Positions 34,114 to 55,206 of a stretch of 64,000 nucleotides of DNA are shown here, one piece after another. Source of the DNA: Bacillota bacterium (GTDB taxonomy: Bacteria > Bacillota > Sulfobacillia > JAJZYS01 > JAJYTV01); contig JAJZAT010000014.1 of NCBI GenBank assembly GCA_021799275.1, positions 1-64,000 on the forward strand, given 5' to 3'. Below the pieces are notes generated by a model. That model was not told the origin of the DNA and made no database searches. It saw nothing but the letters and a program-made list of their open reading frames with translations. Position 1 is the first letter of the stretch. Each line of letters begins with the position of its first letter. The position numbers were made by a program, and so were the translations under genes.

Positions 34114-34330
34114 CGCAGCACCCGACCATGTGCGACCCCTTATAAGCAGTTTTGAGCCAACACCAAAACTGCGGGAGCCAGGATTCTCGAGGCGGGAATG
34201 GCACGCCCCCATTGCGGGGAACCTCGATGTCCCGAGGCCGGCACCCACCTGCCTGAGGCAGGTTCAAAACGCGAGCGGGAACGGCATGGTGGGGTCTTCG
34301 GAACCTCCGCGCAAGCGGAGGTTCTTCGCT
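34114..34330 (+). ncRNA. Structured RNA between aspS and ltaE (6S-like RNA or cis-regulatory leader)
   Basis: A good promoter and a terminator bracket about 215 nt without a gene. The ends pair: ACCCGACCATG (34120-34130) with CATGGTGGGGT (34285-34295), 10 of 11 positions. Inside are a perfect 8-bp hairpin (GCAGTTTT 34146-34153 with AAAACTGC 34165-34172) and a 7-bp hairpin (ACCTGCC / GGCAGGT near 34247-34263). The 3' arm of the closing stem runs into GGGGTC-TTCG-GA(A)CC, which could form an alternative stem with the 5' half of the terminator. 6S RNA lies beside aspS in B. subtilis, as I recall, and has this long-hairpin shape. A switch controlling ltaE is equally open. Confidence 0.5.
34301..34330 (+). 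terminator. Terminator at the end of the leader RNA
   Basis: Perfect 10-bp stem GAACCTCCGC / GCGGAGGTTC with loop GCAA, followed by the pyrimidine-rich TTCGCTTTCCC. It lies 43 bp before the ltaE start, so ltaE needs read-through or antitermination unless it has its own promoter. Confidence 0.65.
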
Positions 34331-35479: not shown

Positions 35480-35509
35480 CAAGGCCACGCCGAGCACGGC
35501 GTGGCCTTG
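35480..35509. terminator. Bidirectional hairpin between ltaE and the selenoprotein gene
   Basis: Perfect 13-bp stem CAAGGCCACGCCG / CGGCGTGGCCTTG with loop AGCA. It lies about 95 bp past ltaE and 3 bp past the minus-strand selenoprotein stop codon, so it probably serves both. T-tracts are short. Confidence 0.6.
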
Positions 35510-35512
35510 TAT

Positions 35513-36322
35513 TCAGGATCGGGCGGGACAGGAGCGCAGCACCCATCCTTCGTCCCCGGCAGCGTCGTCCAGCATCCCGAGGGCCTGGCGCAACACGAAG
35601 ACCTGTTCGTCGGGTTGGTGCACGAGGCCGATCATCTGGCCGTTCTGGGGGCGCACCCTGAGGGCCCGCGGCGGCCGGATCAGTTCCATGCGCCTCGGCA
35701 TGTTGCCCAGCATCACCGTGGCGATGCCGCGAGCTTCGAGCAGCCTTGCGATCAGTCCGCCGGACTGATGGCAAAGCGGTCAGACGGGTACGATCAGGGC
35801 GATATCGACGCCCTCCTCGCGCATGCCGCAGTAGATCGCCTCGCCGGCCTCGCGCACGAGCCCGATCGCGTCGGTGCAGTAGCCGTCGATCACGTAGCCG
35901 CTGGCTGCAAGGGACCCGATCTCCCCGAGCCGCACGAGCTCGGCGAGGCGTTCGGCCGGCCAAAGCACATTCTGATCTTGGCGCACCGGCCCCTCGTCGT
36001 AGTGGCCATGCGCGATCGAGTACCCTTCGAGCGGCCGAAGTGGCAGGGTGCGCACGCCCGTGTCGCCGAAGAGTCCCTGCCAGCGGAACGGCGCCTGGGC
36101 GGGCAGGTAGAGGCCGGCGGTGCTTACGATGCCAACGCGGCTCTCGGACGGCACCGGCGGCGGTGTCACGAATGGCGGTGGACCGTTCACCACCCGCGGA
36201 TAGGTTTTGAAAAAGAGATCCGAGTCTTCGGTCGCGATGGCCCTCTGCACCTCAGGCTGGGCCAGAAACGCCTGATAGCGCCCCTCCCAATCCTCGGGCA
36301 GCACATCGCGGTAGTCGTCCAT
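35513..36322 (-). CDS. Selenoprotein of the glycine/sarcosine/betaine/D-proline reductase component B family
   Basis: The frame has 269 sense codons if the UGA at 35782-35780 is read as selenocysteine 181. The segment before it has GrdB/PrdB (PF07355-type) features: GIVSTAGLYLP, HGHYDEGPVRQDQNVLWPAERL, LGEIGSLA and DIALIVPV. Directly after the UGA the same frame continues PLCHQSGGLIARLLEARGIAT and PPRALRV, also family-typical, for 88 residues to a UGA stop. The resulting U-P-L-C is a redox motif at the place where relatives carry Sec or Cys. A hairpin fitting the bacterial SECIS rules begins 10 nt after the UGA. The ATG follows AGGAGGG. No GrdA, GrdC or PrdA partner is nearby, so the substrate is unknown. 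A nonsense mutation of a Cys codon is the alternative. Confidence 0.8.
35751..35782 (-). promoter_or_regulatory. UGA selenocysteine codon and SECIS-like hairpin
   Basis: On the minus-strand RNA, UGA is followed by 10 nt and then AUCAGUCC-GGC-GGACUGAU, an 8-bp perfect stem whose loop begins with G. The apical loop starts 18 nt after the UGA. As I recall, bacterial SECIS elements have a 4-16 bp stem, a loop of 3-14 nt with a G at position 1 or 2, and a spacing of 16-37 nt; this fits all three. Confidence 0.65.
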
Positions 36323-36385
36323 GAAGTTCCCTCCTGCCGATGTACGCGTCGAGAAGTATGCGCACTTGCACGCGGCCACAACGCA

Positions 36386-36430: not shown

Positions 36431-36841
36431 TCAAGCGGGCTCCGACGCCGCCTCCGCGAGCGACATCTGGCCAAGGGTGTCCTCGATCGAGTCTTGCAGC
36501 TTCTGCCACACCCTGCGCGTGTAGCAGCGGTCCTGCTTGCCACAGCCGGGGCCCTCGCCGTCGAGGCAGTCGTAGGGCGCGAGCGAACCCTCGAGCAGCC
36601 GGATCACGTCCCCGACCCGGATGTCCTCCGACGGCCGCGCCAAGCGATAGCCGCCCTTCGCTCCGCGTACGCTCAGGACGAAGCCGGCACGTCGCAGTTC
36701 CACAAAGATCTGCTCCAGATACTGCTCGGAAATCCCTTCGTCCTCCGCGATCACCCGCAGCGGCACCGGTTGGTCTCCTTGCCGGTGCACGAGCGACACC
36801 AGAGCCCGCAGCCCGTATTCGCTGCGCGTACTCAGTCGCAT
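36431..36841 (-). CDS. Rrf2 family regulator of the suf cluster
   Basis: 136 residues. The winged-helix part is STRSEYGLRALVSLVH, then DEGISEQYLEQIFVELRRAGFVLSVRGAKGGYRLA. Four cysteines follow: YDCLDGEGPGCGKQDRCYTRRVW contains three and could hold an Fe-S cluster, as in IscR/SufR. Being the last gene of the suf cluster, it may sense cluster status and repress the operon from its promoter near 42.3 kb. It is distinct from the Rrf2 beside iscS (22056-22499). The ATG has a GAGGGGGGAG site upstream. Confidence 0.88.
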   Translation of the reverse strand: MRLSTRSEYGLRALVSLVHRQGDQPVPLRVIAEDEGISEQYLEQIFVELRRAGFVLSVRGAKGGYRLARPSEDIRVGDVIRLLEGSLAPYDCLDGEGPGCGKQDRCYTRRVWQKLQDSIEDTLGQMSLAEAASEPA

Positions 36842-37208: not shown

Positions 37209-38612
37209 TTAGCCGACCGATCCCACCATCTCGAGCTTGATCAGGCGGTTCATCTCCACCGCGTACTCCATCGGCAGTTCCTTGGTGAACGGCTCGATAA
37301 AGCCCATCACGATCATGCGCGTGGCCTCCTCCTCCGTCAGCCCGCGGCTGCGCAGATAGAAGAGCTGCTCCTCGGAGACACGGGAGACGGTGGCCTCGTG
37401 CTCCATCGTGACGCGGTTGTCGAGTACCTCGTTGGTCGGCACGGTGTCAGCCTGCGAACCCTCGTCGAAGATCAGGGTGTCGCAGTTCACCTTGGCCTTC
37501 GACCCCTTGACCTCCTTGCCGAAGTGGACGAGACCACGGTAGGTGGTCTTGCCGCCGCCGCGGGAGATCGACTTTGAGATGATGGTCGAGGTGGTGTTCG
37601 GCGCAAGGTGGACCGCCTTCGCGCCGGCGTCCTGGTGCTGGCCCTTGCCGGCGACCGCGATCGAGAGGACGTGGGCGTGGGCCCCTTCCCCGACCATGTA
37701 GACCGACGGGTACTTCATGGTCAGCTGCGAGCCGATGTTGCCGTCGATCCATTCCATCGTGGCGTGCTCGTGGGCCACGGCGCGCTTCGTCACAAGGTTG
37801 TAGACGTTCGGGGCCCAGTTCTGGATCGTCGTGTAGCGGCAGCGGCCGCCCTTCTTGACGACGATCTCGACCACCGCCGAGTGCAGGCTGGACTCCGTGT
37901 AGATCGGCGCCGTGCAGCCCTCGACGTAGTGCACCATCGCGTCCTCGTCGACGATGATCAAGGTGCGCTCGAACTGTCCCATCTGCGAGGCGTTGATGCG
38001 GAAGTAGGCCTGCAGCGGCACCTTCGCCTCGACGCCCTTCGGCACGTAGATGAAACTGCCGCCGGACCAGACGGCCGAGTTGAGGGCCGCGAACTTGTTG
38101 TCTTCGGGCGGCACGATGGTGCCGAAATACTCCTTGAAGAGGTCCGGGTACTCGCGCAGGGCGGAATCCGTGTCGAGGAAGATGATGCCCATCTCCTCGA
38201 GGTCCTGGCGGATGTTGTGGTAGACGACCTCCGAGTCGTACTGGGCCGACACGCCGGCGAGGAACTTGCGCTCCGCCTCGGGGATGCCCAGCTTCTCGAA
38301 CGTGTCCTTGATCTCTTGCGGCACGTCCTCCCACGTCCGGCCCTTCTCGTCCATCGGCCGCACGTAGTAGGTGATGTCGTCGAAGTTGAGCCCGGAGAGG
38401 TCCCCGCCCCACTTCGGCATCGACTTCTGCTGGAAGAGTTCGAGACTCCGCAGGCGGAAGTCACGCATCCAGTCCGGCTCGCCCTTCATCTCCGAGATCG
38501 CCTCGACGACCTTGCGCGTGAGACCCTTCTCGGTGCGGAACACCGAAATGTCGCGCTCGTGGAACCCGTACTGGTATTCCTCGACGCCAGTGATGTCTGG
38601 CCGCTCACTCAC
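37209..38612 (-). CDS. sufB: Fe-S cluster assembly protein SufB
   Basis: 467-residue scaffold subunit of the SufBCD complex. Typical parts are [28 protein letters not shown] at the N-terminus (divided by usual variants), [22 protein letters not shown]-like text and, in the beta-helix, [24 protein letters not shown] with a conserved Cys. A late [12 protein letters not shown] and a C-terminal [20 protein letters not shown] complete it. The GTG start overlaps the sufU stop (GTGA). Confidence 0.96.
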
Positions 38613-39055
38613 TTCGGATCTCCCCCTTCAGCCTGAATCCGGTCGATCGCCTGTTCAAAGGCGTTCATGATAAGCGTTGCGCACTTGACGCGCGCCGGGA
38701 ACTGCGAGACGCCCTCCAGGGCCTCGAGGTCGCCAAGGACGCTCCTGTCGGCCTCTCTGCGCCTCAAAAGATCCTTGAAGGTCTCCGCGATGCGGCGCGC
38801 TTCCGCGATCTTCTTGCCGCGCACGCGGTCGACGAACATGGAGGCCGCCGCCATGCTGATCGAGCAGCCCTGCCCTTCGAACGCGGCGTCCCGCACGACG
38901 CCGTCCTCGTCGACCAGCACGTCGAGATGCAGTTCGTCGCCGCAGCTCGGGTTGTGCAGGCCGACCGACAGGGTGGGATGCGCGAGATGCCCATGATGAC
39001 GCGGGTTCTGGTAGTGGTCCATGACCACCTGGCGGTAGACGTCATCCAGCGACAC
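38609..39055 (-). CDS. sufU: SUF sulfur-transfer protein SufU
   Basis: 148-residue zinc-bound partner that accepts persulfide sulfur from SufS. Its three conserved cysteines lie in [25 protein letters not shown] and [16 protein letters not shown], and the 18-residue insertion typical of SufU versus IscU is present. A GTG start with AAGGAG upstream overlaps the sufS end by 14 bp. SufU is characteristic of Bacillota and Actinobacteria. Confidence 0.95.
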
Positions 39056-40268
39056 GGCGGAAGAACTCCTTTGCGGCCGCGACGGCGGCGAGAAGCTGCT
39101 GCACGTCGTCGGCGTCGTTGTAGAGGTAGAACGATGCGCGGGCCGTCGACGTGGCGCCGAGCCGGCGCATCAGGGGCTGGCAGCAGTGGTGGCCGGCCCG
39201 CACGCAGACGCCGTCCGCGTCGAGGGCCGTGGCGACGTCGTGCGCGTGCACGCCATCGATGTTGAAGGTGACGACGCCGCTCTCGCGGTGTCCCGTCGGC
39301 CCGTAGACCCGCACGCCCTCGATGCGTCGCAGGCCGTCGGCCGCCATGTTGGCGAGTTCGACGTCGCGGCGGTGGATCTCCTCGAGGCCGATGCTCATGA
39401 GGAAGCGGGCAGCGGCGCCCATGCCGACGGCGCCGGCGACGTTCGGCGTGCCACCTTCGAACCTGTACGGCGCCTCCTTGAAGGTCGCGCCGGTGAGCGT
39501 GACCTCCTCGATCATCTCACCGCCGAAATAGACGGGAGGCATCCGCCCGAGAAGTTCCTTTCGGCCGTAGAGTGCGCCGATGCCGGTCGGGCCGCACATC
39601 TTGTGGCCGGAGAAGGCGAGGAAGTCGACGCCGAGTGCCTTGACGTCGATGGGCATGTGCGGCACGGACTGCGCGCCGTCCACGACCAGCACCGCACCCG
39701 CCGCGTGGGCGATCTCGGCGATGCGCGCGACGTCCGTCACGGTGCCGAGCACATTCGAGACGTGCGCGACGGCGATGACGCGCGTGCCCTGATCGACCAC
39801 GGCGGCCACGGCCTCCGGTGTCACCTGGCCGTCCTCTCCCAGCTCCACGAAGCGGAGTTCGGCGCCACGACCGAGCGCGACCTGCTGCCACGGCAGGAGG
39901 TTCGAATGGTGCTCGGCGGGGCTTGTGACGACGTTCGTGCCCGGCCCGAGCACCAGTTCGCCGTAGCTGCGCGCGAGCAGGTTCAAGGACTCCGTCGTGC
40001 CGCGCGTGAAGATGATCTCTTCGGGTTCCGCGTTCACGAGGGCGGCCACGTCGGCGCGCGCGTCCTCGTAGTCCTGCGTGGCGCGCGCCGCCAGGGCGTA
40101 GACCCCGCGGTAGACGTTCGCGTTGTCCTCGACGTAGTAGCGCCGCACGGCGTCCAGAACCACCTGCGGCTTCTGCGCGGTGGCCGCGGAATCTACGTAG
40201 CAGAGGCGCTTGCCGTTTTCGGTGCGCCCCAGCAGGGGGAATTCCGAACGCAATGCGGCGAGGTTCAT
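39042..40268 (-). CDS. sufS: Cysteine desulfurase SufS
   Basis: 408-residue class II cysteine desulfurase that supplies sulfur through SufU. The start MNLAALRSEFPLLGR is from ATG at 40268, overlapping the sufD stop. PLP lysine: FSGHKMCGPTGIGAL. Catalytic Cys: RAGHHCCQPLMRRLG. AEHHSNLLPWQQVA and RFEGGTPNVAGAVG are also typical. Confidence 0.95.
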   Translation of the reverse strand: MNLAALRSEFPLLGRTENGKRLCYVDSAATAQKPQVVLDAVRRYYVEDNANVYRGVYALAARATQDYEDARADVAALVNAEPEEIIFTRGTTESLNLLARSYGELVLGPGTNVVTSPAEHHSNLLPWQQVALGRGAELRFVELGEDGQVTPEAVAAVVDQGTRVIAVAHVSNVLGTVTDVARIAEIAHAAGAVLVVDGAQSVPHMPIDVKALGVDFLAFSGHKMCGPTGIGALYGRKELLGRMPPVYFGGEMIEEVTLTGATFKEAPYRFEGGTPNVAGAVGMGAAARFLMSIGLEEIHRRDVELANMAADGLRRIEGVRVYGPTGHRESGVVTFNIDGVHAHDVATALDADGVCVRAGHHCCQPLMRRLGATSTARASFYLYNDADDVQQLLAAVAAAKEFFRRVAG

Positions 40269-41446
40269 AGCTCTACCTTCTCCTGGAAGATGTCGGCAAT
40301 GCGCTCGCGGACCGACGCGAGCGGGATGTCCTGCAGGAGCGACGCGAGGAAGCCGGCGACGATGAGGCGCCTCGACTCCACCGGCGAGATGCCGCGGGAC
40401 TCCATGTAGTGGACCTGGATCGGGTCCACGGGTCCGGCGGACGCGGCGTGCCCGGCGCTCACTTCCCACTCCGAGATCTCGAGTTCCGGGATGAGGTCGG
40501 CGCGCGCCTCCTCGGACAGCATCAGGGTGTGCTCGTGCTGCCAGCCGCTCGCGCCCTTGGCCTGCTTGCGGATCAGGCTATTCGCGTTGTAGACCGCCCT
40601 CGCCCTGCCTTGCAGCACGCCGCGCGCCTCGATGTCGCTCGTCGTGTGCTGGCCCTCGTGGACCATCACGTGGTTGAAGTCGAAGTGCTGGCGACGTCCA
40701 CCGAAGAAGCTCGCCAGGACCCTGGCCTCCGCCCCGTTGCCGCGCAGGTAGGTGCGCGTGTCCGCAACGGCGAGCCTTGCGCCGACATCGGCGAGGATCC
40801 AGTGGAGCTTCGCGTCGCGGCCGAGTTCGGCGCGCCGCGGCCAGTAGGTCTGCGTGCGGCCCGGGACGCGCTGGAATTCGGTGTAGTTGAGAGCGGCGTT
40901 GTCGCCCAGCACGATCTCTACCGCGCCGCGGACGGCCGCCTCGGTGCCGGCCTCGCCCCGCAGCTCGACGATCAGGTCGGCCCGGGCCCCTTCCTCGAGC
41001 ACCACGAGCAGATGCGGCGCATAGAGCGCACCGCTCTCGAGTTCCACCGTCAGCTGCAGGGGTTCCTGGAGTTCGACGCCCCTCTCGACCCGACAGAAGG
41101 CACCACCCGCGAAGGTCGCGAGGTGCAGCGCGTGCAGCCGGTCCTCACCCTCCGTGAACAGGCGGCCAAGATGCTGCTGCACTTCTAGGCGACCTTCTTG
41201 GATCGCCGTCCTGAGGTCCACCAGCTCGACGCCGGCCGGCACGGCACCTGCAGTGACGCTTGGTGCCTGCGCGAGATCAAGCGCCATGAAGGGTGCCGTC
41301 TCGAAAGGGGTCTGCTTGGACTGCCGGAGCGGCAGTTCCGACACGCGCCCGAGCGCCCCGAGGCGCCGCTCCAGGAGCCAGGAGGGCTCGTCGGCCGCGA
41401 AGGCCGCGATCTGCTCAGGGGTGAGTTCCACGAGCGTGCCCGCCAT
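40265..41446 (-). CDS. sufD: Fe-S cluster assembly protein SufD
   Basis: 393-residue partner of SufB in the SufBCD scaffold, with the shared beta-helix core (VLLASFFGGRRQHFDFNHVMVHEGQHTTSDI region) and the C-terminal ESRGISPVESRRLIVAGFLAS. The start is ATG at 41446, after GAGGAGG at 6 nt; a longer in-frame extension would overlap sufC. SufD is the least conserved Suf subunit, and the N-terminal 150 residues are divergent here, as usual. Confidence 0.93.
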   Translation of the reverse strand: MAGTLVELTPEQIAAFAADEPSWLLERRLGALGRVSELPLRQSKQTPFETAPFMALDLAQAPSVTAGAVPAGVELVDLRTAIQEGRLEVQQHLGRLFTEGEDRLHALHLATFAGGAFCRVERGVELQEPLQLTVELESGALYAPHLLVVLEEGARADLIVELRGEAGTEAAVRGAVEIVLGDNAALNYTEFQRVPGRTQTYWPRRAELGRDAKLHWILADVGARLAVADTRTYLRGNGAEARVLASFFGGRRQHFDFNHVMVHEGQHTTSDIEARGVLQGRARAVYNANSLIRKQAKGASGWQHEHTLMLSEEARADLIPELEISEWEVSAGHAASAGPVDPIQVHYMESRGISPVESRRLIVAGFLASLLQDIPLASVRERIADIFQEKVEL

Positions 41447-41447
41447 G

Positions 41448-42230
<783 letters not shown>

Positions 42231-53898: not shown

Positions 53899-54078
53899 GG
53901 TTCTCCCTCCAGAAACGTGCGCCCTTTTGCCTCTTTGAACATCGCACCTCGACCCATGGTTCCGTAGCGAAGGCACGAGTCGGATCGGATGGCCAGGCGC
54001 CCGGTGATGCCCGTCACGGCCGGCCGGGGCCGAGCGGCGCATGATGGACGCGCCAGTTCGGCCCGAGGAGGCTCAGCC

Positions 54079-55206
54079 ATGCCCAGCTCCCCGTACAGCG
54101 AGGCGCCCTTCATTGTGATCTGGGAAACGACCCGCGCTTGCGACCTCGCCTGCAAGCACTGTCGCGCCGCGGCGATCCCCATGCGCAACCCGGAGGAGCT
54201 CAGCACCGACGAGGCGAGGCGCCTGATCGATGACGTGGCGACCATGCGGCCGCAGCCGAACTTCGTCCTCACCGGCGGCGACCCGATGAAGCGGCCCGAT
54301 CTCGAGGAGATCATCCGCTACGCCGCGAGAGAGCGCGGCGTGCGCATCTCCATCACGCCGTCCGCCACGCCACTCGTGACCCCCGAGCGCATCAGGGCCT
54401 GCGCCGAGGCCGGTCTTGCCCGCTGGGCGTTCTCGATCGACGGCGCCACGGCCGAGGCCCACGACTTCTTCCGCGGGCAGGAGGGTTCCTTCGCGATCAC
54501 CCTCGCGGCGGTCCAGGAACTCAAGCGCCTGCAGCTGCCGCTGCAGGTCAACACGACCGTCTCGCGCTACAACCTCGATTCCCTGCCCGAGATCGGCCGC
54601 CTCGTCGAAGGACTCGGCGCGGTGCTCTGGAGCGTCTTCTTCCTGGTGCCTGTAGGCCGAGGGCGCGCCGACGACGCGCTCGGGCCGCACGAGACCGAAC
54701 GGGTACTCCAGTGGCTCGAGGAGTTCGCGCGCACGTCGGCCTGCGACGTCAAGACGACCGAGGCGCCGCAGTGGCGGCGCGTGCTGCGCGAGCGCCGCGG
54801 TGACGCCCCTGCGCCCCTGGGCGATCGCGGGGGTCGCGTCGGCCGTGCGCCGCGGCCGGTCACCGACGGCGACGGCTTCATCTTCGTGAGCCACAAGGGC
54901 GAGGTCTATCCGAGCGGCTTCCTGCCGCTCGTACTCGGCAACGTGCGAGAGATGCCGCTCTCCGAGATCTATCGAAGCTCCGAGGTGCTGCTGGCCCTGC
55001 GGGACCGCAGCCGCCTGCGCGGCAAGTGCCGCATCTGCGAGTACCGGGAGGTCTGCGGCGGTTCCCGCAGCCGCGCCTACGCCATCACCGGCGACTACCT
55101 CGAAAGCGACCCCTACTGTCCGCACCAGCCGGATCCGGCGGCGGGCTACCGCCAGATCCGCTCGGATGCCCGCGAGCGGCGTACGGCCATCGCCGCATCG
55201 CGCTAA
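54079..55206 (+). CDS. Radical SAM/SPASM protein, haem-biosynthesis-like group
   Basis: 375 residues. The radical SAM cluster motif is CDLACKHC (residues 18-25, in IWETTRACDLACKHCRAAA), with TGGDPMKRPDLEEI following. The C-terminal SPASM region has CRICEYREVCGG and DPYC, which can bind a further Fe-S cluster. It resembles the group that includes NirJ/AhbD-type haem-side-chain enzymes and the Bacillus BA_1875-like family (from memory TIGR04053). The substrate is unknown; with hemQ in the genome an alternative haem step is possible but unproven. The ATG at 54079 follows GAGGAGG. Confidence 0.82.
   Translation: MPSSPYSEAPFIVIWETTRACDLACKHCRAAAIPMRNPEELSTDEARRLIDDVATMRPQPNFVLTGGDPMKRPDLEEIIRYAARERGVRISITPSATPLVTPERIRACAEAGLARWAFSIDGATAEAHDFFRGQEGSFAITLAAVQELKRLQLPLQVNTTVSRYNLDSLPEIGRLVEGLGAVLWSVFFLVPVGRGRADDALGPHETERVLQWLEEFARTSACDVKTTEAPQWRRVLRERRGDAPAPLGDRGGRVGRAPRPVTDGDGFIFVSHKGEVYPSGFLPLVLGNVREMPLSEIYRSSEVLLALRDRSRLRGKCRICEYREVCGGSRSRAYAITGDYLESDPYCPHQPDPAAGYRQIRSDARERRTAIAASR

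Follow-up and report, generated by a model that had tools for sequence, protein, structure and literature searches.

The DNA analysed here, referred to as the window, is a stretch of 64,000 nucleotides corresponding to positions 1–64000 of one contig (C11) in a draft genome (G000) of 3.14 Mb, 61 contigs and 97.5% completeness. A gene of the PrdB/GrdB (PF07355) superfamily occupies positions 35513–36322 of its minus strand and is predicted to encode a selenoprotein of 269 amino acids with Sec181 upon read-through of an in-frame UGA. The ATG start (36322–36320) is preceded by a ribosome binding site, AGGAGGG, at 36329–36335, and the UGA, codon 181, is found at 35780–35782, where it opens a U-P-L-C motif (Sec181, Cys184). 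Behind it the frame runs on for 88 sense codons (PLCHQSGG...) and ends with a TGA stop at 35513–35515. The first-pass annotation had described such an arrangement, namely a minus-strand frame with an AGGAGGG site, interrupted by UGA at codon 181 and resuming with PLCHQSGG and 88 residues, and its coordinates hold. It had also noted a terminator hairpin 3 bp behind the stop. A perfect 12-bp palindrome with a 4-nt loop is present on the same strand (35481–35508), but it follows the stop at a distance of 4 nt, and because it has no good T-run a role as terminator is merely plausible. The openness of the downstream frame is not the evidence on which we rely, because 88 codons without a stop are in themselves nothing unusual at 68% GC (chance about 15%, a rough estimate).

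The upstream gene (36431–36841, minus strand) encodes a Rrf2-family regulator that matches TIGR00738 with 134.7 bits but stays short of the cut-offs for the CymR and IscR equivalogs. Beyond it lies what we take, from its translation, to be sufB (37209–38612, minus strand), the end of a presumed suf operon sufC-D-S-U-B at 37209–42230 named in the same way. This gene order was found in two congeners (L058, L059) and in none of 10 other relatives checked, and an assignment of function from the suf/Rrf2 context was rejected. Elsewhere in the window, a 6S RNA (RF00013, 69.7 bits) is located at 34117–34299 on the plus strand, flanked by aspS and a gene for threonine aldolase, and a radical SAM/SPASM protein of the TIGR04053 family is encoded at 53989–55206 on the plus strand (462.9 bits, above cut-off).

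For comparison, GTDB species genomes were searched with a motif beginning after the UGA, which returned 407 relatives, of which the closest 80 were kept. The codon preceding the motif, excluded from the search pattern, was TGA in 80 of these 80, and a Cys form was found in none of the 80 nearest of the 407. Homology was found on both sides of the UGA. Ka/Ks values against two congeners were 0.12–0.26 after the UGA and 0.15–0.17 before it, and the 88 downstream codons are under purifying selection. Going by record titles, the relatives include Bacillota MAGs as well as the isolate Sulfobacillus harzensis, Rokubacteria, SAR324, SAR202/Chloroflexi, Poribacteria, Acidobacteriota, Myxococcota, Binatota and Gammaproteobacteria; anaerobes, among them Halanaerobiales and Acidaminobacter, are represented too. 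The gene was not found in the near-complete genome of a member of the same genus (G005) and is therefore accessory.

A SECIS-like hairpin with an 8-bp stem and a 3-nt loop, GGC, lies within the coding sequence at 35751–35769 (minus strand) and begins 13 nt downstream from the U of the UGA. Including its lower stem, it extends over 35743–35777, and the window sequence folds with z = −3.3. Across the 80 relatives the stem was paired in 97.2% of 640 cells, and both sides were changed in 32 cells. This covariation exceeded all 500 shuffles and every slid register; relatedness of the sequences inflates such counts, but the slid-register control failed to reproduce them. Codon usage points the same way: the codons of Gln186 and Leu190 occur as CAG-CTG in 62, CAA-TTG in 17 and CAG-TTG in only one of the 80 genes. 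Gly189 is encoded by GGA in 72 of 80 (15.8% of Gly codons elsewhere in the same genes) and Ser187 by TCC, again in 72 of 80 (22.8% elsewhere). The hairpin is a probable bacterial SECIS element and is kept through synonymous and compensatory changes.

All four components of the selenocysteine machinery searched for are present in the genome. These are a tRNA-Sec (selC; anticodon UCA, 68.7 bits), selA (522.9 bits; C45:5847–7172), selB (327.7 bits combined; C11:67208–69073, 3 kb past the window end) and two copies of selD, at C45:7269–8192, adjoining selA, and at C59:11824–12750. The two selD genes (L057, L056; one directly downstream of selA) differ from each other, and each has one in-frame TGA of its own with UGCK as the context; selenocysteine is thus apparently used by the organism in other proteins as well. 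The co-occurrence of selB with the gene is just mildly informative: of 30 genomes having strong TGA-type matches, 26 carry selB above cut-off, but so do 137 of 201 relatives regardless. The earlier proposal that the UGA encodes selenocysteine is borne out by this machinery, by the TGA in every close relative and by the covarying hairpin, and sequence data could hardly give the decoding of UGA 181 as Sec better support.

The proposed kinship with PrdB/GrdB likewise stands. The closest profile was TIGR04483 (PrdB), matched over residues 48–253 (205 residues) with 85 bits and E = 5e-24, so that the curated cut-off of 300 was not reached. PF07355 gave 21.6 bits for the window protein, at the threshold of 22, and all 53 aligned family members matched it with E ≤ 0.01 (best 1e-19) and matched TIGR04483 as well. 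GrdB-type profiles matched around the active site only, at profile positions ~235–374. In a tree of 60 rows, with authentic PrdB taken from three genomes in which PrdA adjoins PrdB (G189, G158, G195), the window protein falls within the stand-alone U-P-x-C proteins (100/93, 100/100, 99/88). PrdB with its UGTCHRS motif formed a clade of its own (99/95), as did GrdB (100/100); the deep branch that divides the stand-alone group from PrdB plus GrdB was weak (66/52). Sister forms carry UPMC, UPEC and UPLCHRT motifs. A wider profile search of the phylum yielded chiefly true PrdB and GrdB and told little more about the stand-alone clade. A paralogous clade without Sec was also observed, in which two proteins (L041, L050) have Ser in place of Sec (SPLCHQT) and two others (L051, L052) lack both Sec and Cys, which suggests that the fold can also do something that needs no selenol.

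The first-pass annotation had seen no GrdA, GrdC or PrdA partners. No match to PF09338 (PrdA/GrdE-type subunits), PF04723 (GrdA) or TIGR04480 (PrdA) was found genome-wide in the 97.5% complete draft; in a draft of 61 contigs such a lack is not absolute. PrdA, PF09338 and GrdA were also not found in close relatives. The partner profiles were found in four positive-control genomes (G189, G158, G195, G170), and in the first three PrdA adjoins PrdB. An aerobic lifestyle had been suggested from the neighbouring genes. Aerobic capacity is indeed indicated by two haem-copper oxidases of COX1 type (subunit I) in the genome, but the suf context is confined to the genus and says little on function.

The wider neighbourhoods of the relatives were rejected as a guide to function as well, since clusters recur within single lineages only and no partner emerges. 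Rokubacteria presumably have rplU/obgE-like genes nearby and SAR202/Chloroflexi what looks by eye like a pantothenate-kinase gene. The remaining neighbours are scattered (M81/MlrC peptidase, D-serine dehydratase-like, CMD, HAD, glyoxalase, PALP) and point in no common direction. In one relative, a gene for an M81/MlrC-type metallopeptidase (L133:8840–10366, plus strand) overlaps the end of the selenoprotein gene.

The predicted model (pLDDT 96.3, pTM 0.94) consists of a single Rossmann-like alpha/beta domain. Sec181 is placed between a strand (174–178) and a helix (184–197), at the N-terminal end of the helix, with Cys184 following. Residues invariant across the 53 members include D87, R91, D116, G147, position 181, P182, C184, Q186, S187, G189, L190, T202 and R219. 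Foldseek searches with the model never gave E below 0.027, and no relative was found in the PDB by sequence, the single match being a designed protein (E 0.008). The VIA-align hits, with microcystinase C as the best (Z 8.5) and the metallopeptidase-like 3iuu at Z 6.8, were near the background of common Rossmann-like arrangements and were not used as functional relatives, even though L133 has the M81 gene mentioned above. Relatives in Pseudomonadota, Myxococcota and Binatota, together with a small number of further MAGs (L098, L101, L104, L106, L108, L110, L114, L118, L119, L124, L127, L131–L134, L137), are extended at the C-terminus by a stretch that holds a PQYQ segment and, close to its end, a conserved CxxC.

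Taken together, these sequence features make it likely that the product of the gene is a true selenoprotein, a stand-alone selenol redox enzyme of the Sec-x-x-Cys type, with UGA 181 read via the SECIS hairpin. In proline and glycine reductases the pyruvoyl group of a partner subunit activates the amine. As neither PrdA nor GrdE was found, no Schiff-base activation of an amine is expected and the substrate should be one that needs none. SelB and tRNA(Sec) would decode UGA 181, helped by the hairpin downstream within the coding sequence. The selenolate of Sec181 would then attack an electrophilic substrate and, upon departure of the product, Cys184 might resolve the adduct, giving a Sec-Cys selenenylsulfide. 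Re-reduction of this pair could be accomplished by a thioredoxin-like donor or, in the relatives from Pseudomonadota, Myxococcota and Binatota, possibly by the C-terminal CxxC tail. A redox reaction different from those of the Stickland reductases, as suggested earlier, is the best reading.

Other explanations were considered. If codon 181 were an ordinary stop, the protein would be complete with codon 180, and the frame behind it would be the relic of a pseudogene. The patchy occurrence of the gene within the genus resembles that of decaying genes, but the invariant TGA with conserved sequence behind it, the purifying selection after the UGA, the covarying hairpin and the complete Sec machinery reduce this possibility to practically nil; chance read-through was ruled out by conservation and SECIS covariation. 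It is also very improbable that the protein is the PrdB of a D-proline reductase, or the B component of a glycine, betaine or sarcosine reductase, acting with an unrecognised partner. Such an assignment would accord with the top family match, TIGR04483, and with the marine surveys that file UxxC sequences of this kind from oxic water under PrdB (PMC1088965, PMC2398784). Against it stand the profile score, far below the cut-off, the lack of PrdA, PF09338 and GrdA in the genome and its close relatives while the controls were positive, and the separate clade formed by the UGTCHRS proteins. Identity as a D-proline, glycine or betaine reductase was rejected on the missing partners, the profile score and the tree.

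For the stand-alone selenol enzyme that we prefer, two types of chemistry can be envisaged. One is the reductive cleavage of a carbon-heteroatom bond, for example in an alpha-halo or alpha-hetero acid, through an attack on carbon of the GrdB/PrdB type that proceeds without a pyruvoyl subunit. The Sec of GrdB/PrdB-type subunits is regarded as acting on carbon, and the homology to these subunits, together with the lack of a detected pyruvoyl partner and a HAD-type hydrolase gene adjoining one relative, speaks for this chemistry. A GrdB-type operon has been proposed for fluoroacetate reduction in Synergistota, but that proposed system retains two substrate-binding protein B components (PMC12366334). 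The gene neighbours are otherwise mixed, and we hold carbon-heteroatom cleavage to be a reasonable proposal whose chances fall somewhat short of even. The other is a general thiol-disulfide or peroxide reductase using U-x-x-C in the manner of thioredoxin- or peroxiredoxin-type selenoproteins. The position of the motif at a helix N-terminus in the predicted model, the CxxC tails of one subclade, the presence in organisms from oxic settings and a gene of the CMD family (AhpD-type) directly upstream in two Acidobacteriota are consistent with it. Yet the conserved D87, R91, H105, D116, N118 and G147 outside the motif suggest a defined substrate pocket, the CMD link is confined to one lineage and, in the predicted model, strands and helices follow one another in a different order from that in a thioredoxin fold; this chemistry is rather unlikely.

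The context of the gene had been called unusual. Listings of 'PrdB' selenoproteins in oxic environments go back to 2005, and the context is less unusual than claimed. A survey of the Sargasso Sea listed 42 'PrdB' UxxC selenoproteins from oxic sea water (PMC1088965), the GOS survey of 2008 counted 235 Sec 'PrdB' against 110 Cys homologues (PMC2398784), and in a 2026 review the family appears under D-proline reductase (TIGR04483, UxxC; PMC13188914). The gene is hence a soundly supported member of an already catalogued PrdB-like variant and not of a new kind; what the present analysis adds is the genome-wide lack of a detected partner, the separation of the clade, the covariation of the SECIS hairpin and the CxxC tails. 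The marine 'PrdB' probably belong for the most part to the stand-alone clade lacking PrdA. We put at about even the chances that the U-P-x-C clade is a separate, widespread and nearly Sec-obligate enzyme class of many oxygen-exposed bacteria, with a reaction of its own and no pyruvoyl partner, and that the 'proline reductase' label in the oxic ocean is a misannotation. In the surveys 'PrdB' is one of the most frequent selenoproteins of oxic sea water. Should these sequences be the clade lacking PrdA, oxygen-exposed bacteria would share a common selenium-dependent reaction without an assigned substrate, and the usual name would probably be wrong. The question is directly testable, the small gene and its predicted fold of high confidence making a practical target for expression and assays.

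Compared with known systems, the window protein shares with PrdB (TIGR04483) homology over residues 48–253, a length of ~240–270 amino acids and a UxxC site with Sec from UGA. However, authentic PrdB adjoins PrdA and has the sequence TAGUGTCHRS, whereas the window protein has U-P-L-C-H-Q-S and no PrdA was found in its genome. With GrdB, GrdF and GrdH (PF07355, TIGR01918) it has the C-terminal domain and the UxxC site in common; GrdB, in contrast to its 269 residues, is ~435–450 amino acids long, with an extra N-terminal domain and the motif UGTCTRCG, and works with GrdE and GrdA. The active site here reads U-P-[LVI]-C-H/N-Q-S as opposed to U-G-T-C in the reductases. The non-Sec paralogues have the same domain and come from the same bacterial class, but have Ser or have lost the motif and contain no UGA. 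The 'PrdB' of the Sargasso and GOS surveys resemble the window protein in their UxxC site, their membership in PF07355 and their abundance in oxic surface water; they differ in being named for D-proline reductase and in the Cys homologues present in GOS, as opposed to none among the 80 nearest relatives here.
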